Shown one piece after another: positions 2,066-27,249 of a stretch of DNA of 40,595 nucleotides; positions within the stretch are counted from its first letter, which is position 1, and every line of letters starts with the position of its first letter. The notes under the pieces are model-generated. The model was not told the origin of the DNA, made no database searches, and saw only the letters and a list, made by a program, of their open reading frames with translations. Origin of the DNA: a virus; the IMG/VR virus record IMGVR_UViG_3300025131_000111, positions 1 to 40,595 of that record. One strand, given 5' to 3'. The translations under genes were made by a program, and so were the position numbers.

Positions 2066-4237
2066 TTAACTCCATCCGAAACTGTCCCAGTAGACTTCGT
2101 TCCAGTTTCCTGTCGTTTGATTTATTCCTGCTCTTGTCAAATGGACAGTCTCCTCTACGACAGTATTCCCATTGTAGAACTTGTACTGATAACCATCAAT
2201 ATATGAGTAACCTGTGAATCCCATATCAGTCTCAATGACATGAACCAAATCGCTCAATCTTCTATGGGTCATATTCATCAATGTGCCTTTATCGTGATTG
2301 ATAAAATCACATCTCATTCTTAGGATCGGCTCGCTTAGTTTTGACAGCATATGGTCAGAACAGGTTTGAGCATCACCAGATGTTGTAAAGAAAGTCCCGT
2401 CTCTGGATTTTTTACGGTTGCCATAAAGAACTTTTGAGGTAGCGTTTTCCGCTTTTGCCATTCCCCTTGATGAATTATCAACCCTGACTTGCAGATTGGT
2501 TTTCATCACCGTGATATATCCACTTGAAGCCGAATCATTCGCAATAGTCCAAGAGGTGAAATGCCCACCATAATCTAAAGCGTTTCCCTCTACCGTTGTC
2601 AAATTCAACAGGCTTCCAGTACCGTCAGAAGCGGTGTTAATCTGAACCCTATCGCTAGAGGTTGGACTTGTAATACTGGCACTTCCTGACGCTATTGCAT
2701 GAAAGATTGTATCTTGCTCATCGCCTGTAATTTTTGACTTGGCTACAAATCGTTTTGTTTCCCCTGCCGTGATTGCGACAGGTTCATTTAATTCCCAAGC
2801 TGTTGTGCCTGACGTCAATGAGGAAGTTACATTGGTCTTTGTTTCTCGAGTGAGAAACCCGATCTCAACCTCGTTATAAACCCCATCGATCCCTTCTTCA
2901 TATGAGTATTGACGATATCCGGCATTTGTTCCGTCATAGGAATCTTTAAAAATACCGACTGGATTTACATGAACACCTTTATTCCTATGCGTTCTCTCTT
3001 CAAATCGCAGAAATCCTCTCCCATCAATAAATAAAAAACCGTCCTCTGTATCCTGTATTCGGTAAAGCGTTTCGAGAACAGATTCGCCGTCCAATGACTC
3101 TGTGTTCAAATACGGAGACATTCCTGATGGGTATGTCGTTAGATATGAGGCTCTAATATCAAAAATCATGTTAGCCGCGACGGTAAGTCCAAGTGGGTTA
3201 GTTGCTTGACTCACGAGGCTAGAAGTCGTGGTTCCCGCTGACGTATTCACATAGCCGTAGCCATGCGTCAATTTGAAATCTTCAAATAGATCGTATGCTT
3301 TTATATAGCAATACTGCATACCCTTTTGAGGTCGGGGAGTTATCTGTTTCACCTTTCCTGTAAATAGCGGTCTGAAGCCGCCAAACTCATGGAATTTAAC
3401 ATCCGTACCGTGTTGCTTGGCATAAATACCGTGCTTGGTCGCATCGTCAAGAGCAGATGTACCGTCTAATTTAAATCCCTGATATGAACCAGTATCAGTT
3501 CCCGAATCAGGATAAACTTTTTCATCGTCTATAAATACTCGAACTGTATCCCCATGAATCTCAGCACCCATCTTCTTTTTAACCCCTGCTCCCCATGTAT
3601 AGGAAACCTGAGAATCTCCTGTACCAGTTCCCGCAAGAGAGTCCGACCCACCGATAACCTTTCTGATCTCAATGTGATTGCTTGCTGTAACAATTCGCAC
3701 ATAAAGATAATTATTTATATCAACATATCTCAAGACTAATCCCGATTCATATGTGGAACTTGTCCCTGCTGATGAGGTAGTTATTTCTGCCGCAACTTCT
3801 AAATCTGTTTCCTCCATATCAATAACCGAAACTGAGTCTGCTCCCGCATTTAATTCAGCCCAACCACTCGCATTACATTTGAAAGCACCCTCTCCGTCAA
3901 CCCACGAAAAGCCCGTATCATAGGGAATTGAGTGGCTTGTGAGAACCGTTCCACTTGTATCTACAAAATCATCATAGGGATACCACATCTCAACTTTGAC
4001 AGCTTTGCCTATTTTCAGCTTTCCGTAGAGTGGAGAAGTTACCTTTGGAGGTGAATATTTATTGTCATTATTATTGAGTTGAAGATTCAGAACCGCACCG
4101 TTCATGTATTCGGTTGCTGTTTGCCTAGTATGAGCAAAAGACATAGTACGAACATCATCTGTGACATTGTCATAGGTGCCGATAAAAAACCCGTTGCCGT
4201 CCCAATCTATAAGAGCTCTTACAAATGGCTTAACCAT
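2066..4237 (-). CDS. Tail hub / minor tail protein with inserted jelly-roll domain
   Basis: 723 residues. The start overlaps the tape-measure stop (TAATG) and the stop lies 3 bases before the fibre start, so it sits between tape measure and fibre, where distal-tail and hub proteins are encoded. The first ~85 residues look like a tail-tip beta domain. Residues ~90-290 resemble a LamG/concanavalin-like sandwich, with a Gly/Ser-rich strand pattern and an Asn-Tyr-Leu-Tyr-Val-Arg strand. The rest has a baseplate-hub character (Tyr/Asp-rich, aligned strands). Likely role: closing the tail tip and holding the fibre, possibly with glycan binding through the insert. No catalytic motif was seen. Family assignment is by context. 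Confidence 0.72.
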   Translation of the reverse strand: MVKPFVRALIDWDGNGFFIGTYDNVTDDVRTMSFAHTRQTATEYMNGAVLNLQLNNNDNKYSPPKVTSPLYGKLKIGKAVKVEMWYPYDDFVDTSGTVLTSHSIPYDTGFSWVDGEGAFKCNASGWAELNAGADSVSVIDMEETDLEVAAEITTSSAGTSSTYESGLVLRYVDINNYLYVRIVTASNHIEIRKVIGGSDSLAGTGTGDSQVSYTWGAGVKKKMGAEIHGDTVRVFIDDEKVYPDSGTDTGSYQGFKLDGTSALDDATKHGIYAKQHGTDVKFHEFGGFRPLFTGKVKQITPRPQKGMQYCYIKAYDLFEDFKLTHGYGYVNTSAGTTTSSLVSQATNPLGLTVAANMIFDIRASYLTTYPSGMSPYLNTESLDGESVLETLYRIQDTEDGFLFIDGRGFLRFEERTHRNKGVHVNPVGIFKDSYDGTNAGYRQYSYEEGIDGVYNEVEIGFLTRETKTNVTSSLTSGTTAWELNEPVAITAGETKRFVAKSKITGDEQDTIFHAIASGSASITSPTSSDRVQINTASDGTGSLLNLTTVEGNALDYGGHFTSWTIANDSASSGYITVMKTNLQVRVDNSSRGMAKAENATSKVLYGNRKKSRDGTFFTTSGDAQTCSDHMLSKLSEPILRMRCDFINHDKGTLMNMTHRRLSDLVHVIETDMGFTGYSYIDGYQYKFYNGNTVVEETVHLTRAGINQTTGNWNEVYWDSFGWS

Positions 4238-6186
4238 TAAAATGTTCCTTGGGTTCTCAAAGCCTCACGAATCTGCATCGTGATGAAATCTCCAAACTTT
4301 TGAGCGGTTGATTCATCGTCTAGAATCACCGTACCGCCCTCTGGCATCATTACATTAACTGTTATGCCACCCATCGCTCCACCGCCCCGATTTAGAGGCA
4401 CGACAGCTTCGGGTCCGCCTTCCCCAATCATTGCTAATGTAGGCTGATTAACTATGCCGCCTTCTGCGAGTTGCGGAATTTCTGGAATATTAAACTTAAA
4501 TTCCTTGCCGCCTAACCAATCAGGTAAAGAAAAGCCGACTCTATTAATTGCTTTAATAGCGCCATTAATCATTGTAATAAACCCATTTGCAATAGCTTTT
4601 AATCCAGAAATAATTAAACTGGTATCACCTGTAAATATGCCAACTATTAAATCCCATGCCCCCTGTACAATAGAGACTAAACCATTGAAGTAACCGCTAA
4701 TAACATCAACCGCTCCCCCCACTATGACTTTCGCTACCTCCCAGATCGCACCAAATTTATCACTCATAAATTCATCAATAGCAGTCCATAATTTATCTAC
4801 GAAAATCTGCCACGCCGTCCCCATCCAAATACCAAAATTTCTAAAGTGTTCTTTAGCTCCATCAAAGTCACCTTTGAACAATGCAATAAATCCAGAAATC
4901 AGTTCACTCATTGCATTAATAACCGCACTAACGGTTTCTTTTAAAGCAACCCATGTTGCCCCGAATTTATCGGTTAAAAATGCGTCAAATTTTTCAAAGG
5001 CTTCTTGGACAACAGCGACGATCTTGTCCCAGTTTTTCCAGATAAGAATTGCTGCCGCTACGGCTAATACAATTCCCATAATAATTAATCCCATCGGGGA
5101 CAATACTAGGTTTAAAGCTGTCTGTGCCGCTGTCCATAACCATGTCAATGCAGTTTGAACAGCAGTAAGTCCTATTAATCCTGAGATGCCGGAAATCATT
5201 GCAGGCAACATGAAAACAATAGGACCGATTGCGGCGAATACACCCGCTAAAGGCTCAATCATCAATTTCAAATTATCTTTGAATATGGTAAACCTATCTG
5301 CTGAAGTCAAAGAATCTTCATTCATTGTCTCAACAGCACCTTCAGCATTAGCAAGGGTATCTGCCATAGCGGCGATATCAATTGTCCCGTCCCTAATGGC
5401 AACTGACATTCTCTGCGCCCCTTCAGCACCGAATATATCAGTAGCAATATTCAAGGCTTCTGTGTCAGAAGTTGCCCCCTTAATATCTCTCATGCTTGCC
5501 TGTAAGGCTTCTCCCATATCACTAACGCCAGAAGCTGCCAACCGCCTCATGGAAGCGTTCAATCCGGGCATTATTCTTGAAACGGATATGCCCGCTCCTT
5601 CTAAGTTACCCATTAATGCAACAGTTTCATTAAAGTCCAGACCAAGGTTTCTCAGAACGGGACCAAACTCCATAGTTGTAGAAGATAATCGGCTTATGGG
5701 AACACCAGTAATTTGAGCGGCTTTAGCGAAAGAATCCAAAGCCTTTCCGCTTTCAGCCGCATCCAGACCAAATAAATCCATAGCGTCAGAAACGCTTTTA
5801 ATCATTGGGGCTACTTCTGTTCCTGTTAGCCGACCCAAGTCGAGGAATCGCTTTGTTGCTGTTTCTAATTCAGACCCAGTTAATCCAAGTTCGGTATGAA
5901 CATTGGCAACTGCTTTGGAAACTGAATCAAAGTCTTGAGGAACACCTGACGCAACTGCCTTAAAAGAATCTTTTAGGCTTTCTAATTCCGCACCAGTTGC
6001 TCCAGTACCCGCCCGAATATTGTTGGTAGATTTTGTAAACTCGTCACCAATTCTGGTTAAAGCTAAACCCACCCCCGCTACTGCCGCAGAAACGAGCATC
6101 ACCGATTTGCGAACTTTCTCAAAACTACTTGTAGCCTTACTGCCGTCAGCATTGACTAAAATATTTACTACGTTACCGCTACTCAT
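4237..6186 (-). CDS. Tail tape measure protein (TP901-type)
   Basis: 649 residues. The N-terminal half is helical, rich in Ala, Gly and Ser, with the typical TP901 core around residues 50-300 (GLDFNETVALMGNLEGAGIS region). A hydrophobic stretch lies at roughly 315-390. The C-terminal half has Trp-rich repeats and ends with the common tape-measure motif AEGGIVNQPTLAMIGEGGPE. It sets tail length. At about 0.15 nm per residue the tail would be near 100 nm, a modest siphovirus tail. The start ATG overlaps the TGA of the frameshifted chaperone frame (ATGA). Confidence 0.93.
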   Translation of the reverse strand: MSSGNVVNILVNADGSKATSSFEKVRKSVMLVSAAVAGVGLALTRIGDEFTKSTNNIRAGTGATGAELESLKDSFKAVASGVPQDFDSVSKAVANVHTELGLTGSELETATKRFLDLGRLTGTEVAPMIKSVSDAMDLFGLDAAESGKALDSFAKAAQITGVPISRLSSTTMEFGPVLRNLGLDFNETVALMGNLEGAGISVSRIMPGLNASMRRLAASGVSDMGEALQASMRDIKGATSDTEALNIATDIFGAEGAQRMSVAIRDGTIDIAAMADTLANAEGAVETMNEDSLTSADRFTIFKDNLKLMIEPLAGVFAAIGPIVFMLPAMISGISGLIGLTAVQTALTWLWTAAQTALNLVLSPMGLIIMGIVLAVAAAILIWKNWDKIVAVVQEAFEKFDAFLTDKFGATWVALKETVSAVINAMSELISGFIALFKGDFDGAKEHFRNFGIWMGTAWQIFVDKLWTAIDEFMSDKFGAIWEVAKVIVGGAVDVISGYFNGLVSIVQGAWDLIVGIFTGDTSLIISGLKAIANGFITMINGAIKAINRVGFSLPDWLGGKEFKFNIPEIPQLAEGGIVNQPTLAMIGEGGPEAVVPLNRGGGAMGGITVNVMMPEGGTVILDDESTAQKFGDFITMQIREALRTQGTF

Positions 6187-7180: not shown

Positions 7181-7909
7181 CTATAGTCTGCACAAGGCGA
7201 CTGCTATTTTTGCGTTGCTAAATGTACCTGTCGTTATAACCTTTAAATATCTCGCCACACTACCGCTCATTACAAGCCTTTCCGCTGATGGTGCGCCCGC
7301 CGCCGCAACCGTTGAGAACGTGATTAAATCTGAATATGTCCCACCGCTTGATGTTGCTTCTTGGATTTTTACTATGACACTTCCAGACGCTAAAGACATA
7401 ATCTGACAATAACCAGATGCCCCATTTGAAGAAGAGGCTCCACTATCAACAACGCTTCCCGATCCTGCTGAAGAATGAGTGTCATCATGAGCGGTTAACA
7501 TCTGACCAAACTCACCACCCATTCCATTACCGGAAAAGGTTGAAGAAACCGTCATTGCCGAACCCTGAGATCGAGACACGTTATAATCTGCTTCCTTGGC
7601 TGATATGCCAACAGATGGATCACCCGCCGCTGAACTCAAAGCGACTAAAACAACTTGATCCGCAGTTGGTAATTTCCCTGAGTTAGAACTGAATGTGGCA
7701 TGAATTTTATTTGATGCGTTGTCAAAATATCCACTAACCCCAATAGAGCCATCGGCACGTCCCACCATTCGGGTCATAGCGGCATTTTCCAAGCAAGTCG
7801 TATCCATTAATTCTTGCGTATATCCCGCCCCATCTAAAGCATTTGCATCCCCTGAGAGATCATTGCCCATAACATAGAGCCTGACATTTAATCCTGATTC
7901 TTTAGCCAT
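7181..7909 (-). CDS. Tail tube protein paralogue 2 with C-terminal decoration domain
   Basis: 242 residues. Residues 1-~135 align with the next gene (shared MAKxxGL start, AMTRMVGRADGSIGVS, FDNASNKIHATF, EADYNVSRSQGS). After a Gly/Ser-rich linker (~140-165), residues ~165-242 form a separate beta-rich domain (IVKIQEATSSGGTYSDL, then ARYLKVITTGTFS) of the kind that decorates tail tubes. The start has GGAGAATCAA before ATG. Tandem duplication followed by gain or loss of the decoration domain is inferred. Confidence 0.72.
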   Translation of the reverse strand: MAKESGLNVRLYVMGNDLSGDANALDGAGYTQELMDTTCLENAAMTRMVGRADGSIGVSGYFDNASNKIHATFSSNSGKLPTADQVVLVALSSAAGDPSVGISAKEADYNVSRSQGSAMTVSSTFSGNGMGGEFGQMLTAHDDTHSSAGSGSVVDSGASSSNGASGYCQIMSLASGSVIVKIQEATSSGGTYSDLITFSTVAAAGAPSAERLVMSGSVARYLKVITTGTFSNAKIAVALCRL

Positions 7910-7918
7910 TTGATTCTC

Positions 7919-8353
7919 CTACGGCGTGATCGTTACGTCACCATAAATTTGTACTGTTAATGGAACATCTAAAGTCTTATATGCCACACCGCCCATATCG
8001 GTATATGCCGTTGTCATATCCCCGATCTCTATATCTTGCACATTTCCTGCCAGATCAGAATCACCTCTTAATGCACTATCGATATTAACTGCCGTATTCC
8101 AAATATCCAATTCCAATGTTTCTCTAACATCTGCTGATGCTTGCATCCGAAAATATGACCTGATCATAAATTCTGTTTCACTTGATTCATCTGCCAATGT
8201 TAAAAAAGAAACTGACCTTCTGACCATCCAGAACGCAACCATCGGAGTACCAGAAATTGATAGCGGCTCTCCTCTTAGGACTGCTGTAAATGAAGGGCTA
8301 CTGACAGTTCCCAATAATGCATCTATTCGATCTAATGCACCTGATCTACTCAA
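7919..8353 (-). CDS. Tail terminator / completion protein
   Basis: 144 residues. It starts at TTG 8353..8351, overlapping the previous stop as TTGA. Its position between the gp10-like neck protein and the tail-tube gene fits the tail terminator of siphoviruses, a small alpha/beta ring protein that ends tube growth and joins the head. The sequence alternates helix (residues 1-15), strands (SFTAVLRG, AFWMVRRSVSFLTLAD) and a middle helix (ADVRETLELDIWNTA). No firm motif was recognised, so the call rests on order and size. Confidence 0.6.
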   Translation of the reverse strand: MSRSGALDRIDALLGTVSSPSFTAVLRGEPLSISGTPMVAFWMVRRSVSFLTLADESSETEFMIRSYFRMQASADVRETLELDIWNTAVNIDSALRGDSDLAGNVQDIEIGDMTTAYTDMGGVAYKTLDVPLTVQIYGDVTITP

Positions 8354-16163: not shown

Positions 16164-16462
16164 TATCCATAACTCAGTGGCTTTATGTCTGCTATCGCAC
16201 TATTGACAACAGATGACCCCGCTACATGCTGACTGATTAAAGGAAGAAACTTCTCAATAAATATATTAAGATACTGGTCAACTGTCATTTGAATCGCTCC
16301 CGCTGTGCATACAGTACAGCCAACAGAATTAACGTACCCTTCAATTGCTCCCTCAATCGCTTCAGCGTGTGAGTCGTTTGTTATTGGAAGCTCTACTGTC
16401 ACCAAATACGATTCATGTTGCAAGCACCGTTCCGTTTTAACTGAAATCTTTTTATCTTGCAT
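16163..16462 (-). CDS. Unknown protein (99 aa) upstream of terminase
   Basis: Not recognised. Starts at ATG 16462 inside the end of the glycosyltransferase gene and ends overlapping TerS (TAATG). The sequence has a strand (SYLVTVELPI), a helix (AEAIEGAIEGYVNSV), two Cys (CTVC) and an amphipathic helix (VDQYLNIFIEKFLPLI). No membrane segment. Position suggests a packaging or DNA-modification accessory, but this is not shown by the sequence. Confidence 0.6.
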   Translation of the reverse strand: MQDKKISVKTERCLQHESYLVTVELPITNDSHAEAIEGAIEGYVNSVGCTVCTAGAIQMTVDQYLNIFIEKFLPLISQHVAGSSVVNSAIADIKPLSYG

Positions 16463-17342
16463 CAACTTTCCTTGTGACTTTTTTTAATCCGTACTCATTA
16501 TTGCCTTTAGGGATTACCAGATTTTTCTTTTTAATTAATTTAGTTTTTTTAAATGGTGAATAATCAACATAATGATGCCATCTTCCGTATTTCCATGTAA
16601 CTTTCGCAACGTCAGGATGCATTTCTGCAAGCATTTTAGATTTATTCAGCGTCCCTTCATATGCATAAAAGTCTTCGGTGTTACCGCCTTTCAGAGTTTG
16701 GGTCGTCATCTTTTCTTGAATAAACGCATTGAACTGAATCGTACACCAGCCTCCCTTCAATACCCTTAGGGATAAATCCGTATCCTCGTTGTATCTCCCT
16801 CTCCAACGGAAGGGAATATCATTACGAATTAATAAACAAGAATAAATCCGAGTATTCTTAACAAATGCGGGGCGTTTATCTTTAAATACCATAAACATAA
16901 AATACTGAAATCCAGCCAGACCGATATTCTCGTATCTGTCAACGAAATCTTCAGACATTCTAAAAATTGTTCCCGTATTCACCCGTGCATAACGATTACG
17001 ATTGACCCTTCCAAATCCCGTGATGTTATCGTCCATTACCCAATGAAATGACGCGCCGATACTAATCGAATGATCCCAACAGAAATTACGAGCCGCTCCG
17101 GGACCGTTAGATTTCCAGTCGTCATCTGTGCATGGGTCGTATTCGTCTTGATATTTCTTGTCGAGTATTAATAGCTTGGCGTGCTGTATCCCGTTAGTTT
17201 TTAATGCGTCCCTATATAGTCCATACTCTTGCTCTTCAACGACAAGATAATGAGGAACTCCCATCTTATCCAATACGTCACTCGTCTTGCGTACTTTGTA
17301 ACGATTCTTGGAAATAATATAGATGGGATATTTAGGATTCAT
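16452..17342 (-). CDS. GT-A glycosyltransferase, resembling TET-associated type
   Basis: 296 residues. N-terminal YPIYIISKNRY, then a nucleotide-sugar fold with HWVMDDNITGFG (Asp104-Asp105-Asn106 as the DxD-like metal site), PGAARNF and RWRGRYNEDTDLSLR (acid base region). This layout and wording resemble the phage 'TAGT' family, predicted to add sugars to hydroxymethylated DNA bases. Its neighbours are a ParB-like protein and a Cys4 Zn protein, as often seen in phage DNA-modification clusters. No TET oxygenase or base hydroxylase is present in this window, so the substrate is uncertain. It could act on another base or on virion proteins. Confidence 0.72.
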   Translation of the reverse strand: MNPKYPIYIISKNRYKVRKTSDVLDKMGVPHYLVVEEQEYGLYRDALKTNGIQHAKLLILDKKYQDEYDPCTDDDWKSNGPGAARNFCWDHSISIGASFHWVMDDNITGFGRVNRNRYARVNTGTIFRMSEDFVDRYENIGLAGFQYFMFMVFKDKRPAFVKNTRIYSCLLIRNDIPFRWRGRYNEDTDLSLRVLKGGWCTIQFNAFIQEKMTTQTLKGGNTEDFYAYEGTLNKSKMLAEMHPDVAKVTWKYGRWHHYVDYSPFKKTKLIKKKNLVIPKGNNEYGLKKVTRKVDAR

Positions 17343-19031: not shown

Positions 19032-19961
19032 ATGACCAAATTCAACGAGAACAGAACATACGGGGTAGAGCTTGAAGTTCTTTTTAGCGGTACAAGACAA
19101 GACCTTGCCAATGCGATCAATCAAGAGTTCGCCAGCCAGAACATTTCCGCCTCTGCTTATGACGCAGGATACACCCACGCAGACAACAACCAGAACATCT
19201 GGAAAGTTGTTCATGATGGATCAGTTAGAAACGGATGGGAAGTAGTCAGCCCGATACTCAAAGGATTTGAGGGAAAGGCACAAATTGATGCAGTCTGCAA
19301 AGCTCTCCAAAATGTCGGATGCGACACTAACCGAACCACAGGGATGCACGTTCACCACCACGCCCTCGATCTCACTCCCAAGCAGATCGGACAAGCATTT
19401 GGAACATACGCCGCTTTCCAGACATTACTCGATTACAGCGTTTCCCCAAGCCGCAGGGGTTTCCAAACCTACACCACCCCAGTTCCCACAACTGTTACAA
19501 ATAACGGCGACGACAAATGGGACGATGTACAAACCCGACCACAAGCAATCCGCAAACTAGACACCACGAAAAGCAGTTCCCGATACTCCGCCATGAATCA
19601 CGATTCCCTGCGACAGGGGAGCCGACAGTACCACGGAACAATCGAGTTCCGACAACATCAGGGAACGACCAACGCTACAAAAATTTGGACTTGGATACTA
19701 GTTACCCAGTCAATCATTGAAAACGGGGTACAGAACAAAGCCCGATTCCCAAAGACACTTACCTCTGAAATGCAGAATGGCAAGATGCACGCCAAGGGAG
19801 ATTTCGTAAGATTCAAAAACTTCATCGGGATAACTGCCGAAACCAACGATGGAGACGCCGAAGCCAGCGAGCCTTACATGTGGGCATACAAGCAGATGAG
19901 AAAGACCATCAAAAAGTTTACCCAACGCGCCAATCTCGAGATAGACAATATCGGGAGATAA
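19032..19961 (+). CDS. Glutamine-synthetase-like amidoligase (Amidoligase_2 family)
   Basis: 309 residues, ATG after AAAGGAGATTTCAA. Family signatures in order: YGVELEVLF (residues 10-18, metal-binding Glu13 and Glu15), HDGS (61-64) and EVVSP (70-74), TGMHVHHH (103-110), and IEFRQHQGT (204-212). These are the COOH-NH2 ligase residues that bind ATP-Mg and the carboxylate. Such enzymes join a carboxylate to an amine. In phages comparative genomics links them to class-II glutaminases and predicts modification of peptides or other targets. A glutaminase is encoded at 21,603. It has its own promoter and its own terminator. The true substrate is unknown. Confidence 0.85.
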   Translation: MTKFNENRTYGVELEVLFSGTRQDLANAINQEFASQNISASAYDAGYTHADNNQNIWKVVHDGSVRNGWEVVSPILKGFEGKAQIDAVCKALQNVGCDTNRTTGMHVHHHALDLTPKQIGQAFGTYAAFQTLLDYSVSPSRRGFQTYTTPVPTTVTNNGDDKWDDVQTRPQAIRKLDTTKSSSRYSAMNHDSLRQGSRQYHGTIEFRQHQGTTNATKIWTWILVTQSIIENGVQNKARFPKTLTSEMQNGKMHAKGDFVRFKNFIGITAETNDGDAEASEPYMWAYKQMRKTIKKFTQRANLEIDNIGR

Positions 19962-19977
19962 TCGAAACGCTCCCACT

Positions 19978-20005
19978 AAAGCCCCCAGAAATGGGGGCTT
20001 TTTTT
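19978..20005 (+). terminator. Rho-independent terminator after the amidoligase gene
   Basis: AAAGCCCCC (19978-19986), loop AGAAAT, GGGGGCTTT, then a T-run to 20,005. Separates the amidoligase transcript from the ribozyme-bearing operon. The 15 bases before it (TAATCGAAACGCTCC) look like the opening of the type II hammerheads further downstream. Confidence 0.9.
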
Positions 20006-20016
20006 ATTGGCATTAT

Positions 20017-20060
20017 TTATTCATTCAGAACCCCATTTCTATATGTGAACGAATGAATAA
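20017..20060. repeat. Inverted repeat upstream of P2
   Basis: Perfect 10-base arms TTATTCATTC (20017-20026) and GAATGAATAA (20051-20060) with a 24-base loop. It lies in the AT-rich gap between the terminator and promoter P2; a binding site or RNA stem is possible. No gene is seen in 19,962-20,451. Confidence 0.5.
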
Positions 20061-20162
20061 TATTTACCACCGCACCCACCGCAGAACGTTCATCGGGATG
20101 TCTGTTCAACTTAAACGAAAAAAGCAATTTCCGAGGAGTTTCAAAAATAGCGTCAAAAAGGG

Positions 20163-20191
20163 TTTACATCTAAGATAATTCCCTTTATAGT
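20163..20191 (+). promoter_or_regulatory. Early promoter P2
   Basis: -35 TTTACA (20163-20168), 17-base spacer, -10 TATAGT (20186-20191). Preceded by AAAAAGGG and followed by ttacatattgaaactat, matching P1 in 13 of 17 bases after the -10. It would start the transcript carrying the hammerheads at about 20,198. Confidence 0.75.
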
Positions 20192-20197
20192 TTACAT

Positions 20198-20383
20198 ATT
20201 GAAACTATTAGATGCACTAAACAAAAGCATCACAAACCCAAGGGACGACCGACTTAAGAGAGGCGAGCCCGACTGAGAAGAAACAAGAACCTCTACACGG
20301 AGACAGAACGGACAAGTCTCTCAGACATGAGAGGGGAAAAGATCGAGAGATCGGGGTACTCAGCAAAACGAGCGGGATGACCG
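20198..20383 (+). other. Structured 5' leader of the P2 transcript
   Basis: No ORF of note. Several short hairpins are visible: GATGC/GCATC (about 20,211-20,231), AGAGG/CCTCT, CTCTCA-gaca-TGAGAG, GATC-gaga-GATC, and GAGCGG-gatga-CCGCTC (20,370-20,386). The last shares bases 20,384-20,386 with stem III of the first hammerhead and so competes with it. Confidence 0.5.
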
Positions 20384-20442
20384 CTCAAGTCTAGCACTAA
20401 ACAATCGTGCTACTGATGAGCCGCAGAACGGCGAAACTAGGG
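20384..20442 (+). ncRNA. Hammerhead ribozyme 1 (type III)
   Basis: Core: UC at 20390-20391 (cut after 20391), CUGAUGA at 20413-20419, GAAA at 20433-20436. Stem I TAGCAC/GTGCTA (6 bp, 9-base loop). Stem II GCCG/CGGC with loop CAGAA. Stem III, open-ended, pairs CTCAAG (20384-20389) with CTAGGG (20437-20442): five pairs (one G-U) and one A-A mismatch. All invariant core bases are present. The 3' side of stem III overlaps the AGGGAG ribosome site of the next gene. Confidence 0.8.
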
Positions 20443-20451
20443 AGAACGGAT

Positions 20452-20691
20452 ATGAGTTCAGCAATCGAATTAAACAGCGTTTTTGACCAAGCAGAAGAAT
20501 TGGTTGGGACATCACCAAGCGGAATCGATCTTAGGAGTGCCATTCATGCGGTTATTACCAAAGGCGTGGACATGGATGAGAGAGTGAGTTTTTTCTACCG
20601 AAAGATTGGGTCCCGAAAATTTATGGATAACACGGAGTACCTCGCAAGAAATTACGAGACGATGAGGACAACGACCCAGACCATCGGTTAG
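20452..20691 (+). CDS. Unknown early protein (79 aa)
   Basis: Starts at ATG 20452 (MSSAIELNSVFDQAEEL), with GGGAGAACGGAT before it; a longer frame from 20,407 would run through the hammerhead core and is rejected. Small, mostly helical, charged; residues ~25-45 alternate (SGIDLRSAIHAVITKGVDMD). Not recognised. First gene of the ribozyme operon. The same GGAGAACGGA-ATGAG context precedes the next two genes. Its TAG stop overlaps stem II of the next hammerhead. Confidence 0.7.
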   Translation: MSSAIELNSVFDQAEELVGTSPSGIDLRSAIHAVITKGVDMDERVSFFYRKIGSRKFMDNTEYLARNYETMRTTTQTIG

Positions 20692-20745
20692 CCGAAACGC
20701 TCTACGGAGCGTCTGCAGGGATTTATCACCCTGTACTGACGAGGC
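20691..20745 (+). ncRNA. Hammerhead ribozyme 2 (type II)
   Basis: GAAA at 20694-20697; stem III CGCTC-TACG-GAGCG (5 bp, UACG tetraloop); UC at 20712-20713 (cut after 20713); stem I TGCAGGG/CCCTGTA (7 bp with one G-U, 8-base loop); CUGACGA at 20736-20742; stem II, open-ended, GCC (20691-20693) with GGC (20743-20745), extendable with a mismatch. Stems I and III are hairpins, hence type II. Every conserved core position is present. Its first base is the last base of the preceding stop codon. Confidence 0.9.
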
Positions 20746-20771
20746 AGATTCCTCAATTAAGGAGAACGGAG

Positions 20772-21056
20772 ATGAGTTATATACCAGAATTTTTAATGAG
20801 ACACGACAGGGAGATAATCGATACAGCGGTTGAATTAATAGATGGATGCTTTGAAACAGATACCATCATCAACGCCCTTCATGAGGCGTTAGTAGCTTTT
20901 ATGGGTAAAGGGGCAGAGGTTAGCGTATTTGAAGATCATTATGATGAAAATTTCGCAATGGGATACGTTGACCCATATAAAGATTACCTTGTATTTGAAC
21001 ACCTAACTGGTGAACGAATACCAACCGAAAAAGTATCCCTTTTCCCACGAAGCTAA
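20772..21056 (+). CDS. Unknown early protein (94 aa)
   Basis: ATG after AAGGAGAACGGAG. Begins MSYIPEFLMRHDREIIDTA; acidic, helical first half (DTAVELIDGCFETDTIINAL), then an aromatic acidic segment (FEDHYDENFAMGYVDPYKDY). Not recognised; no Cys cluster or membrane segment. It lies between hammerheads 2 and 3, so its mRNA would be released as a single-gene fragment. Confidence 0.7.
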   Translation: MSYIPEFLMRHDREIIDTAVELIDGCFETDTIINALHEALVAFMGKGAEVSVFEDHYDENFAMGYVDPYKDYLVFEHLTGERIPTEKVSLFPRS

Positions 21057-21058
21057 TA

Positions 21059-21114
21059 GCCGAAACCCTCGCAAGAGGGTCAGCGAGATTTTATCTACTC
21101 GCTCTGATGATGGC
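21059..21114 (+). ncRNA. Hammerhead ribozyme 3 (type II)
   Basis: GAAA at 21062-21065; stem III CCCTC-GCAA-GAGGG (5 bp, GNRA loop); UC at 21080-21081 (cut after 21081); stem I AGCGAG/CTCGCT (6 bp, 10-base loop); CUGAUGA at 21104-21110; stem II GCC (21059-21061) with GGC (21112-21114). A single U (21111) is extra between the core and stem II, which normally follows at once, so activity is less certain than for its neighbours. It begins two bases after the TAA of the preceding gene. Confidence 0.78.
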
Positions 21115-21144
21115 AGATACCATACGGATTAAAGGAGAACGGAG

Positions 21145-21522
21145 ATGAGTCACATAGGAAACGATGCAATCATAGATGCCCAGAGGGACGTTTGTACGGT
21201 ATGCGAAGGATTAGATGTAGATGTCTGCATCGCATGTGGAATATACGAGCCACACATACCAGAGTTAATGATGATGCACGGTAAATGCAACAGATGCGAC
21301 AAAAAAATATTTATTCGTTCAACGAATGACGGGCAACGCAAAACCCGCAACTGGAACGATTATTGGCGCACTCAATTCTACGGATTATTTGTAGGCGATG
21401 ATTGGAAGTTTATTCTCTCCCGTTGCTGTAATCGCAAAGTCAGGAGAGCAAGAACTTTCGGCGGTCATTGGACTGCGGATACAACAATGTCCCTAAGTGC
21501 AGGGAACACATATACGCACTAA
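21145..21522 (+). CDS. Cysteine-rich zinc protein (125 aa)
   Basis: ATG after AAAGGAGAACGGAG. Cys pairs: CTVC, CIAC, then CNRC, and a later CC (residues ~20-50 and ~95), the pattern of one or two zinc sites. The C-terminal half is basic and aromatic (NWNDYWRTQFYGLFVGDDWK, then CCNRKVRRARTFGGHW). Possibly nucleic-acid binding. Not recognised as a named family. Its stop TAA overlaps the first base of hammerhead 4. Confidence 0.7.
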   Translation: MSHIGNDAIIDAQRDVCTVCEGLDVDVCIACGIYEPHIPELMMMHGKCNRCDKKIFIRSTNDGQRKTRNWNDYWRTQFYGLFVGDDWKFILSRCCNRKVRRARTFGGHWTADTTMSLSAGNTYTH

Positions 21523-21578
21523 TCGAAACTCTCCTACGGGAGAGTCTGCGGGGATTGCCCACCCCGTACTGATGAGAT
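21522..21578 (+). ncRNA. Hammerhead ribozyme 4 (type II)
   Basis: GAAA at 21525-21528; stem III CTCTCC-TACG-GGAGAG (6 bp, UACG loop); UC at 21545-21546 (cut after 21546); stem I TGCGGGG/CCCCGTA (7 bp with one G-U, 8-base loop ATTGCCCA); CUGAUGA at 21569-21575; stem II ATC (21522-21524) with GAT (21576-21578). Stem sequences differ from ribozyme 2 with compensating changes (CGCTC/GAGCG against CTCTCC/GGAGAG; GCC/GGC against ATC/GAT), which supports selection on the fold. Confidence 0.9.
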
Positions 21579-21602
21579 AGGGCGAACTTAAAGGAGGCAC
21601 AT

Positions 21603-22481
21603 ATGTGCGGATTAGCAGGATTAGTGATTGGAAAAAAGAATAGGACAAAGGAGGATTTCGACAAGATCAGATCAGACTTTTCTGATTTGATGGTAGCGAC
21701 CCAAATCAGGGGGAGACACGCGACTGGAGCGTTTGTATTAGATACCAAAAGCGGTATCACATACTTCAAAGCTCCAGTACCCGCTGAAAAAATAGTCAAG
21801 ACCCAAGGATGGGCAGACCTACTCGATCTAATCGGAGAGGACACGGTAGCGATTGTCGGACACGTTCGATACGCAACGCACGGCAGTCCAGAGGAAAACT
21901 CAAATAACCACCCTATCGTCATGAACAATGTTATTGGCGTCCATAACGGGGTGATTAGCAACAATTGCGAATTATGCGACAAGTACCCGTATGAACAAGA
22001 AGTAGACTCTGCCGCTATATTTTCAACAATTGAGGCATATGCGAAAAAGTCCAGAGTATCTACCGAGAGCATCGCAAAAGCACTTCCTGAACTGGAAGGA
22101 AATTTCGCAATTATGCTGGCAGATAAGCGACGACCTAATTCCATATTCGTCGCAAGGGACGGCAGTCGCCCGATTGTCTATCATAAAGACAAGTCGGAAA
22201 AACTGCTCTGGCTTTCATCTACAGGGGAAATAATGCGGACTGGTCTGAAAGTATCAGTATTCCCTACAATGCTCCCTCCGTACTCTGTAGCACGCTTATC
22301 CGTCGCTCATGCGGGCAAAACAAGAATTAAAACGACAAGCTGGTGGGAAGCCCCGAAAATCAAAAAGATTTCCTACAAAGAACTTGCCGCAGAAGTTAAA
22401 GACCCGCAAGCGTTGGAAATATTCGCCAAACTCGATGCTTTGATGGAAGACGAGTACGCAGAGGAATCTGAATATGACTAA
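21603..22481 (+). CDS. Class-II glutamine amidotransferase (stand-alone glutaminase domain)
   Basis: 292 residues, ATG after AAAGGAGGCACAT. The Ntn-hydrolase signatures are complete: Cys2 as nucleophile (MCGLAG), RGRHATG (36-42), GHVRYATHG (86-94), NNHPI (101-105), HNGVISN (114-120) and DSAAIF. No synthetase (asparagine synthase, PurF or GlmS) domain follows, so it only frees ammonia from glutamine or passes an amide on to a partner. The amidoligase at 19,032 is the likely partner. The last gene behind a hammerhead; the next gene overlaps its end by 8 bases. Confidence 0.92.
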   Translation: MCGLAGLVIGKKNRTKEDFDKIRSDFSDLMVATQIRGRHATGAFVLDTKSGITYFKAPVPAEKIVKTQGWADLLDLIGEDTVAIVGHVRYATHGSPEENSNNHPIVMNNVIGVHNGVISNNCELCDKYPYEQEVDSAAIFSTIEAYAKKSRVSTESIAKALPELEGNFAIMLADKRRPNSIFVARDGSRPIVYHKDKSEKLLWLSSTGEIMRTGLKVSVFPTMLPPYSVARLSVAHAGKTRIKTTSWWEAPKIKKISYKELAAEVKDPQALEIFAKLDALMEDEYAEESEYD

Positions 22482-22779
22482 GCGGAAATGGTACTGCATA
22501 TGGGAATCTAAAAACGGTAACCGTTGCCCCCGTCAAATGAGACGGGGGTTTTACTGTAACCAACACGCAAAACCGATAAGAAGGGTAGAACTAAAGACCA
22601 AGCCCACAAAACGCTTTATCAAGCAGATGGAGCGGTTCGCTAAGAACCGAACGCTGTTTGATCTAACGCTCAAGGGCGATACATACAACGTGATTAATAA
22701 TCACATGTTTCAGAATGATAAGATGGTCTGCCACTTTTTCGATTTCGTCAGACGAGTAGGAGGCAACCCTAAAAGATGA
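22474..22779 (+). CDS. Basic Cys/His protein (101 aa)
   Basis: Starts inside the end of the glutaminase gene. N-terminal MTKRKWYCIWESKNGNRCPR, then GFYCNQHAKP: Cys-x9-Cys and Cys-x2-His, a likely zinc knuckle. Very basic in the middle (KTKPTKRFIKQMERFAKNR). Probably binds nucleic acid. Family not recognised. Confidence 0.65.
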   Translation: MTKRKWYCIWESKNGNRCPRQMRRGFYCNQHAKPIRRVELKTKPTKRFIKQMERFAKNRTLFDLTLKGDTYNVINNHMFQNDKMVCHFFDFVRRVGGNPKR

Positions 22780-26352: not shown

Positions 26353-27249
26353 TTGGAAACAACAGTAACGACACCGATTACGGTGCAAAATGTTCAAGAT
26401 GGGGGCTGGAAGTACACGATCACCGCAGAATGCACATGGGTATCAAGAGATTATCCAGTCAATCAAATATCAATGAACAAAAAACTTGGAGATTATCCCG
26501 AAATTGGGAAAACATATCTTTGTACCCTTGAACGGGGTAATCTCCGAAAGTATCAAGACGGTAGGGAAAAAGACGATTCAAAAACGTGGAACTGGTTTTG
26601 GGATATTGCAGTATTTGATATACAGCAAGATACCGCTCCCACAAACTACGCCAGCAAAGATGAAGTTCCGTATCCCGCTACGACTCAATCGAAGCCGTTT
26701 AATACTCAGAGCGATGTAAACCCTACTACCCGTCTGAATATAACCGCCTCGCACGTTAGAACTGCATTAATGCAGTCTGTCGAGATGGGAAAAGCTGACG
26801 GAATTGTCACAGATGCGACAGATATCATCCTTGAAAGATCAGATGAACTATTAAAGTATTTAAATGATCGCACCTTTGGCAGTTCTCCGTTAGTTGCGAA
26901 AGCAATAATGGAAGGGGCAACTGTTTCAGAAATCAGACCCAATACAGACCCGATCCCACAGCAAGAGATGCACACCCCGCCTTCTGCGGAGATGTACGCT
27001 GAGTTAATGCAGAACTGGAAAATACCCAACACTATCGCAAGCGGTAAAGACTTCAAGGAAGTTTGTATCTCTTGCGGGTTTGAGATGGAATGGGTAATGG
27101 AAAAATTCAGAGTTATGGGAATATCCAAGTCTGCTGATTATGTCAGCAGTGAACGTGGCAGTTATCAAGATTTGGCTATTATTCTTTGCTCGAAAGCAGT
27201 AACTGAAGGCATGACTCATCCCGACTCTAGTACCGCAGACACTTGGTAG
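26353..27249 (+). CDS. Unknown early protein (298 aa), possible ssDNA-binding role
   Basis: TTG start at 26353, preceded by AAGGAGG. The first ~95 residues are beta-rich and aromatic (GGWKYTITAECTWVSRDY, then KTYLCTLERGNL and WNWFWDIAVFD), compatible with an OB fold as in single-strand binding proteins. A disordered linker follows, then a helical C-terminal half. Position just before the helicase supports replication. This is inference; no clear family signature was seen. Confidence 0.55.
   Translation: METTVTTPITVQNVQDGGWKYTITAECTWVSRDYPVNQISMNKKLGDYPEIGKTYLCTLERGNLRKYQDGREKDDSKTWNWFWDIAVFDIQQDTAPTNYASKDEVPYPATTQSKPFNTQSDVNPTTRLNITASHVRTALMQSVEMGKADGIVTDATDIILERSDELLKYLNDRTFGSSPLVAKAIMEGATVSEIRPNTDPIPQQEMHTPPSAEMYAELMQNWKIPNTIASGKDFKEVCISCGFEMEWVMEKFRVMGISKSADYVSSERGSYQDLAIILCSKAVTEGMTHPDSSTADTW

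Follow-up and report, generated by a model that had tools for sequence, protein, structure and literature searches.

Genes and transcription signals of the locus

The window analysed here, that is, the whole 40,595-nucleotide stretch of virus record IMGVR_UViG_3300025131_000111, carries on its + strand an amidoligase gene, three small orphan genes and a gene for a stand-alone glutaminase, and the ORFs of all five were confirmed at the coordinates given in an earlier note on this DNA. The first gene (19032..19961, 309 aa) was assigned to Amidoligase_2 (PF12224) by a profile search (97.6 bits against a cut-off of 22, E=1e-27); a single-sequence scan with the protein gave no matches. Its structure model resembles best, among PDB entries, YbdK, the Pup ligase PafA, Dop and glutamine synthetases, with a Foldseek probability near 1 and TM scores of about 0.35-0.45, the model being of moderate confidence only (mean pLDDT 70). 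The active-site motifs GxExE, GxHVH and ExR are all present in the alignment, as had been claimed for the metal and ATP residues; among 11 phage sequences, the invariant columns are GxExE, D, E, HxH and ExR, which we take, from knowledge of the family, to bind metal and ATP.

The amidoligase appears to have a transcript of its own, with its own promoter-like and terminator-like signals and no ribozyme: a putative promoter P1 (18958..19004, +; TTTACA-18-TATGAT plus the element TTCACATGTTGAAAGTAT) precedes it, and a hairpin resembling an intrinsic terminator (19978..20001, +) follows it. A second putative promoter, P2 (20155..20208, +; AAAAAGGGTTTACAT-N16-TATAGT, with the promoter-like site at 20163-20191), closely resembles P1 and shares its element, of which the window holds no other mismatch-free copy; P2 also contains the inverted repeat ATAGTTT/AAACTAT (20187-20193 / 20202-20208). 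With a start placed from the promoter-like site, the transcript would open with an untranslated leader RNA of about 194 nt (20198..20391, +), in which two blocks (about 20234-20274 and 20366-20387) are conserved in the relatives L099 and L018.

Downstream, the orphan genes of 79 aa (20452..20691), 94 aa (20772..21056) and 125 aa (21145..21522), all on the + strand, alternate with four predicted hammerhead ribozymes on the same strand. The leader ends in one of type III (20384..20442, predicted cut 20391/20392 from the consensus), whose core is complete and whose stem III has a mismatch; its covariance-model score of 38.4 bits (RF00008, E=1e-5) is below the gathering score of 48.5. The other three are of type II (RF02276) and score 44, 43.5 and 38.2 bits against an Rfam gathering score of 37: one begins within the stop codon of the 79-aa gene (20690..20753, predicted cut 20713/20714), one lies at 21058..21122 (predicted cut 21081/21082), and one, directly 5' of the glutaminase, at 21521..21586 (predicted cut 21546/21547), the last being kept in L018, L099 and L100. 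They have a conserved core and three covarying helices: in an alignment of 10 type II sequences, 10 of 15 pairs show two-sided changes and 98.7% of the cells are paired (shuffles: 0/500). The earlier note had placed all five genes in one ribozyme block; this holds for the small genes, each of which is bounded by hammerheads, and has to be revised for the amidoligase, which lies outside, with the terminator-like hairpin and the promoter-like site of P2 in between.

The last gene (21603..22481, +) encodes a 292-aa class II glutaminase that matches GATase_6 (E=4e-15), with GlmS glutaminase domains as its nearest PDB relatives. Its motifs are intact in the alignment (Cys2, RG, the GHxRYATHG region, NxHP, HNG and DS; residues Cys2, R36-G37, H87-x-R89, N101-x-H103-P104, H114-N115-G116 and D135). 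The second domain is absent: only GATase_6 is recognised on the chain, which bears no synthetase or acceptor domain such as that of GlmS or AsnB, and PF00733 has no match anywhere in the window. The description of the enzyme as having Cys2 and a full active site and lacking a synthetase domain was thus borne out. An Asn_synthase-like ATP-PPase, considered as the missing synthetase partner, occurs in the L099 contig and is absent from the seven other records searched, window included, so that it is not a general partner. A Listeria match to the glutaminase proved to be a bacterial GlmS on an apparently bacterial contig.

The amidoligase/glutaminase pair and its proposed chemistry

Amidoligase and glutaminase make up a conserved pair, as is supported by their co-occurrence in other viruses; the lack of co-occurrence that would have spoken against the earlier note was not what the comparison showed. 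On viral contigs, the amidoligase is present at 36 of the 39 loci retrieved by the glutaminase, and the glutaminase at 29 of the 80 retrieved by the amidoligase; when the two lie within 5 kb of each other (136 pairs), they share a strand in 135 cases and follow the order amidoligase then glutaminase in 127. They are adjoining or near each other in Arthrobacter, LUZ24-like, Vibrio and Stenotrophomonas phages. Because the genes are neighbours in these named phages and in many viral contigs, the pairing, which the earlier note had mentioned, counts as already known, and what is new here is the ribozymes at its junctions. Among genomes, the closest match comes from an assembly labelled Dehalococcoides, on one contig of it (glutaminase 42%, amidoligase nearby, no ribozyme found); it is too distant to support a host assignment.

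Co-occurrence does not extend to the three small genes, for which a role as substrate or carrier peptides of both enzymes had been suggested. They sit between the two enzyme genes, and the promoter of their block resembles that of the amidoligase; yet their products match nothing at E<=1 in 50,697 phage records and have no homologue in 21 related loci by phmmer (the 101-aa L018, 76-aa L142 and 84-aa L099 queries being excluded). Moreover, no such genes lie between the pair in L099, where a ribozyme alone separates the enzymes, or in Arthrobacter phages, where the amidoligase directly adjoins the glutaminase, and in L018 and L142 the gap is filled by different small genes. A substrate or carrier role is therefore highly improbable. 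The 125-aa protein, cysteine-rich and possibly zinc-binding (three CxxC plus one CC pair), looks from its sequence more like a zinc-binding regulator.

We lean slightly towards a glutamine-fed amidoligase/glutaminase pair, expressed as single-gene mRNAs by predicted self-cleavage. The amide-forming role is one that we presume from knowledge of the two families, and the chemistry we infer is the following: the glutaminase, via its N-terminal Cys2, would free ammonia from glutamine, and the amidoligase, presumably glutamine-synthetase-like, would activate a carboxylate with ATP and couple the ammonia to it. As the target, our best guess is a carboxylate carried by a protein of host or phage, by a peptide or by an envelope component.

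One has to keep in mind a second lineage, in which the amidoligase occurs with a cyclotransferase and no glutaminase was detected, so that ammonia from this glutaminase is not a universal feature. Amidoligase loci in other phages that carry a gamma-glutamyl cyclotransferase, with no glutaminase annotated nearby, favour another scheme: the amidoligase would link an acid, glutamate or some other, with an amine, in gamma-glutamyl-amide chemistry, and its partner (glutaminase or cyclotransferase) would recycle the product. Rather than supplying ammonia, the glutaminase would then be an amidohydrolase of the Ntn type, editing the amidoligase product or removing it. The presence of both partners in LUZ24-like and Vibrio phages and the similarity of the amidoligase model to gamma-glutamyl ligases such as YbdK point the same way. 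The full GlmS-type glutamine-binding pattern kept in the glutaminase, as well as the usual side-by-side position and fixed order of the enzyme genes, argue against this scheme, which we regard as rather unlikely.

A third role, in which both enzymes would modify phage DNA bases, is brought to mind by two genes just upstream on the opposite strand, which encode a ParB-like protein and a TET-associated glycosyltransferase (PF20691), both of families that turn up in DNA-modification neighbourhoods, and by an upstream ORF in L099 and L018 read by eye as a putative C5-methyltransferase. However, the ORFs searched included no recognisable hydroxymethylating enzyme. The upstream genes, besides lying on the other strand, vary from relative to relative, and genes of this kind are missing beside the pair in most phages that have it; we consider base modification very unlikely.

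Ribozymes at the gene junctions

In this phage and several of its relatives, almost all gene boundaries around the pair bear predicted self-cleaving RNAs, which belong to two unrelated classes. At matching junctions, hammerhead II was found in L018 (two), L099, L100, L020 and the L021 group, and twister P5 in L101 and L142; the L101 contig has twister P5 and hammerhead together. Twister P5 (RF02684) exceeds its gathering score once in L101 and six times in L142; for the additional copies, the support is a model built from three sequences. The class thus varies (hammerhead II, twister P5 or both in one contig) and the position of the junction is constant: most ribozymes begin no more than about 4 nt from a stop codon, with a start codon following, usually 7-28 nt downstream. 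Hammerheads also occur 3' of the amidoligase in the cyclotransferase lineage; a twister-like match at that place in L070 (E=0.04) was discarded, its core being poor by eye.

The pair can do without ribozymes, since none was detected in L140, a 41% relative with both enzymes, in the named phages with the pair or in more distant loci. Could they be inactive or selfish relics of a phage module, with no role in gene expression? The relatives that lack them, such as L140, would fit, as would the altered core (CCGATGA) of the L100 hammerhead, a change that may impair it. Selection on function is nevertheless argued for by the consensus CUGANGA core of 9 of the 10 aligned hammerhead II sequences, by strong two-sided covariation and by the placement of both classes at stop codons, and relics seem to us a very unlikely explanation.

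Under the self-cleavage that we favour, a single transcript from P2 would be split by the four hammerheads, which would release the leader RNA, a separate mRNA for each of the three small genes and the mRNA of the glutaminase. On one side of every cut, just past a stop codon, a hairpin with a cyclic phosphate would remain, and on the other side a hairpin with a 5'-hydroxyl, shortly before the next ribosome-binding site; these hairpins should stabilise both RNA ends and uncouple the genes; we infer that cleavage occurs in vivo and stabilises the mRNAs. As most ribozymes start at or near the upstream stop codon, a terminating ribosome would block their folding, and we tentatively raise the possibility that self-cleavage is gated by translation, a junction being cut only after the ribosome has left the stop codon. 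If so, the swap from hammerhead to twister would mean that selection acts on where the transcript is cut, not on which RNA makes the cut, and phage ribozymes of so far unexplained function would gain a concrete role.

The locus offers a gene pair with a measurable position, the stop codon, at which ribozymes of two unrelated classes take each other's place. Ribozyme function can thereby be tested directly, by asking whether the RNA is cut, whether it is stable and whether it is translated. The locus also delimits a small pair of enzymes, for which one can now look for a substrate.

Comparison with known systems

The nearest described arrangement is the amidoligase / glutamine amidotransferase / ATP-grasp / cyclotransferase cluster of the LUZ24-like Pseudomonas phages LUZ24, PaP3, tf and UFV-P2, where Amidoligase_2 is likewise followed by a GATase_6 protein on one strand (PMC3890496). 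Unlike that cluster, the window has a shorter glutaminase, no cyclotransferase (PF06094) and no ATP-grasp or COOH-NH2 ligase among the ORFs searched; PF14395 gave no match in the window, the control likewise matching nowhere. No Rfam hammerhead was found near the cluster in PaP3 or in the LUZ24 stretch read, and an intergenic hammerhead variant has been reported in PaP3 (PMC3088659). In the Arthrobacter phages Ottawa, Kharcho and Laroye-like, the amidoligase also precedes a glutaminase of stand-alone size, but no small genes lie between them and ribozymes were not detected. MurT/GatD, a glutamine-dependent amidating pair, likewise keeps ligase and glutaminase as separate subunits (PMC3267633), of other families, so the resemblance is one of logic only.

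As for the ribozymes, tandem hammerheads that flank genes are known from prophages, with cleavage demonstrated for other loci in that study (Perreault et al. 2011, PMC3088659); there too, several hammerheads stand between individual genes or short groups of genes, but the genes are others, whereas here the junction is constant between phages and the class switches to twister. Finally, surveys have found that hammerhead and twister ribozymes are over-represented around certain phage genes and in each other's vicinity, for reasons called unknown or speculative (PMC5408937, PMC4604425, PMC10085705), their clustering being left unexplained in published work (PMC10085705). The two classes occupy similar places in our case as well, with the difference that the gene pair and the stop-codon junction of the swap can be named.

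Amidoligase, glutaminase and the genes between them

The window consists of one virus record, 40,595 bases long, whose genes include those for a phage head, portal, terminase and tail, and we found the ORFs named by the earlier note where it had placed them. As it had proposed, the first (19032-19961, +) is an Amidoligase_2 and the last (21603-22481, +) a class II glutaminase with no additional domain, both with intact catalytic residues in our alignments. The suggested link between the two families held as well, the pair recurring both in named phages and in viral contigs. The two genes are adjacent or near each other in annotated phages of Arthrobacter, in Pseudomonas phages Bjorn, PaP3 and LUZ24, and in Vibrio and Stenotrophomonas phages; a LUZ24-like cluster with the pair has already been described (PMC3890496). 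Among the amidoligase loci of viral contigs, 29 of 80 are accompanied by a glutaminase; the glutaminase loci carry an amidoligase in 36 of 39 cases (68 of 78 in a second glutaminase search). Many of these loci are near-duplicates, and the rates from the glutaminase searches are biased upwards by the use of linked members as seeds.

The three small genes lying between the enzymes (20452-20691, 20772-21056 and 21145-21522; 79, 94 and 125 aa) had been put forward as substrate or carrier peptides. Their products have no Pfam hit at E<=1, none of their PHROG hits is better than E=0.06, tblastn in phages (E<=1) returned no match, and no homologues were found in 21 related loci. In relatives, the gap between the enzymes lacks these genes, which speaks against their being required as substrates or carriers.

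Two neighbouring regions deserve mention. The ORF directly 3' of the glutaminase (22474-22779) has a Cys-rich N-terminus, contains a terminator-like hairpin (22526-22549) and is weakly similar to an ORF of the related locus L100. On the minus strand, 16452-17342 encodes a TET-associated glycosyltransferase (PF20691) that shares about 50-56% identity with proteins from phages of Aeromonas, Vibrio, Tenacibaculum and Pectobacterium; the ORFs searched in this 40-kb phage included no recognisable hydroxymethylating enzyme.

Ribozymes at the gene junctions

Three type II hammerheads (RF02276) score above the Rfam gathering score, at 20690-20753, 21058-21122 and 21521-21586, and the scan at that score found no further ribozyme in the whole window; a more sensitive scan added a type III hammerhead (RF00008) at 20384-20442, below the gathering score and with a complete core. 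Over ten type II sequences from the window and its relatives, 98.7% of cells are paired and 10 of 15 pairs show two-sided changes. A pseudoknot between loop I and the 3' tail (UAUCU/AGAUA, GCCC/GGGC) can be read by eye in several copies, including those at 21058 and 21521.

Related viral-contig loci vary in ribozyme class and gene content. L099, whose glutaminase is 62% identical to the window's over the best segment, has amidoligase, type II hammerhead and glutaminase, the gap being devoid of genes; L018 (57%) has amidoligase, hammerhead, two small genes, a second hammerhead and glutaminase, both hammerheads being type II; in L100, a type II hammerhead with an altered core precedes the glutaminase. 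Part of the agreement between models R1 and R3 and the hammerheads of alignment A10 is built in. In L101 (40%), a twister P5 (RF02684) lies upstream of the amidoligase, further twisters lie ahead of a small gene and between the two enzymes, and a type II hammerhead lies 3' of a small gene that itself follows the glutaminase; the two extra twisters helped build their scoring model, and what supports them is their alignment with the copy recognised by Rfam. L142 and near-identical contigs (44%) have six twisters by Rfam and nine by a model built here, each of the nine matches (L142 6319-11514) falling at a cistron junction and together marking nearly every junction over 5 kb. It is the densest ribozyme array among the loci examined.

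Five loci from a set picked by amidoligase similarity rather than by ribozymes (L020, L021, L022, L029 and L030) have a type II hammerhead immediately 3' of the amidoligase, and a profile search found no glutaminase in them; L021 has a second hammerhead just upstream of a cyclotransferase gene. Rfam found no ribozymes in eight named-phage loci, in nine more distant glutaminase loci or in the related locus L140, nor did two models built here in twelve genome loci. As a side observation, L099 encodes at 3835-4779 (-) an Asn_synthase-like ATP-PPase, adjoining ParB-like and methyltransferase-like ORFs and absent from the other relatives searched.

At these loci the first base of most ribozymes lies within about 4 nt of the end of the upstream stop codon; downstream, usually at a distance of 7 to 28 nt, there is a start codon accompanied by a purine-rich site. 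The position table uses a wrong reading frame for L101 rows 3621, 5136 and 6316 and L142 rows 7603 and 7917; read directly, the stop at L101 6315-6317 ends a 33-aa ORF.

Transcription layout and leader RNA

A promoter-like site of its own precedes the amidoligase and a terminator-like hairpin follows it, and the ribozyme block begins from a second promoter-like site (20163-20191). Both upstream regions share AAAAAGGGTTTACAT and TTYACATRTTGAAANTAT; without mismatch, TTYACATRTTGAAANTAT occurs only at these two sites, and GGGTTTACAT has no further plus-strand copy and one minus-strand copy near 26722. Because the search patterns were taken from the same two sites, the common elements are at most suggestive of co-regulation of the amidoligase and the block.

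An untranslated leader RNA of about 194 nt follows (20198-20391), with counterparts in L099 (about 5826-6005) and L018 (about 7640-7870), the only other copies found by an exact scan of viral contigs. Two blocks are nearly invariant among the three, and the 3' hairpin carries compensatory changes; the window copy has no Rfam match. By eye, a hammerhead-like arrangement (GAAA, long stem III, CUGARGA; stem II weak or missing) lies upstream of the first gene in L018 (about 7868-7965) and L099 (about 6010-6165).

Proposed function and known systems

Our best reading of these sequences is a glutamine-fed amidation pair whose region would yield mRNAs separated by self-cleavage at the ribozymes. The chemistry would follow from the families, an amidoligase of probable glutamine-synthetase-like fold and a GlmS-type glutaminase. 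Exchange of ribozyme class at the stop-codon junctions of the pair was not found in the literature searched, mostly outside subscription journals. Hammerheads and twisters were already known to be associated with phage genes and with one another, and the pairing of amidoligase and glutaminase was known too.
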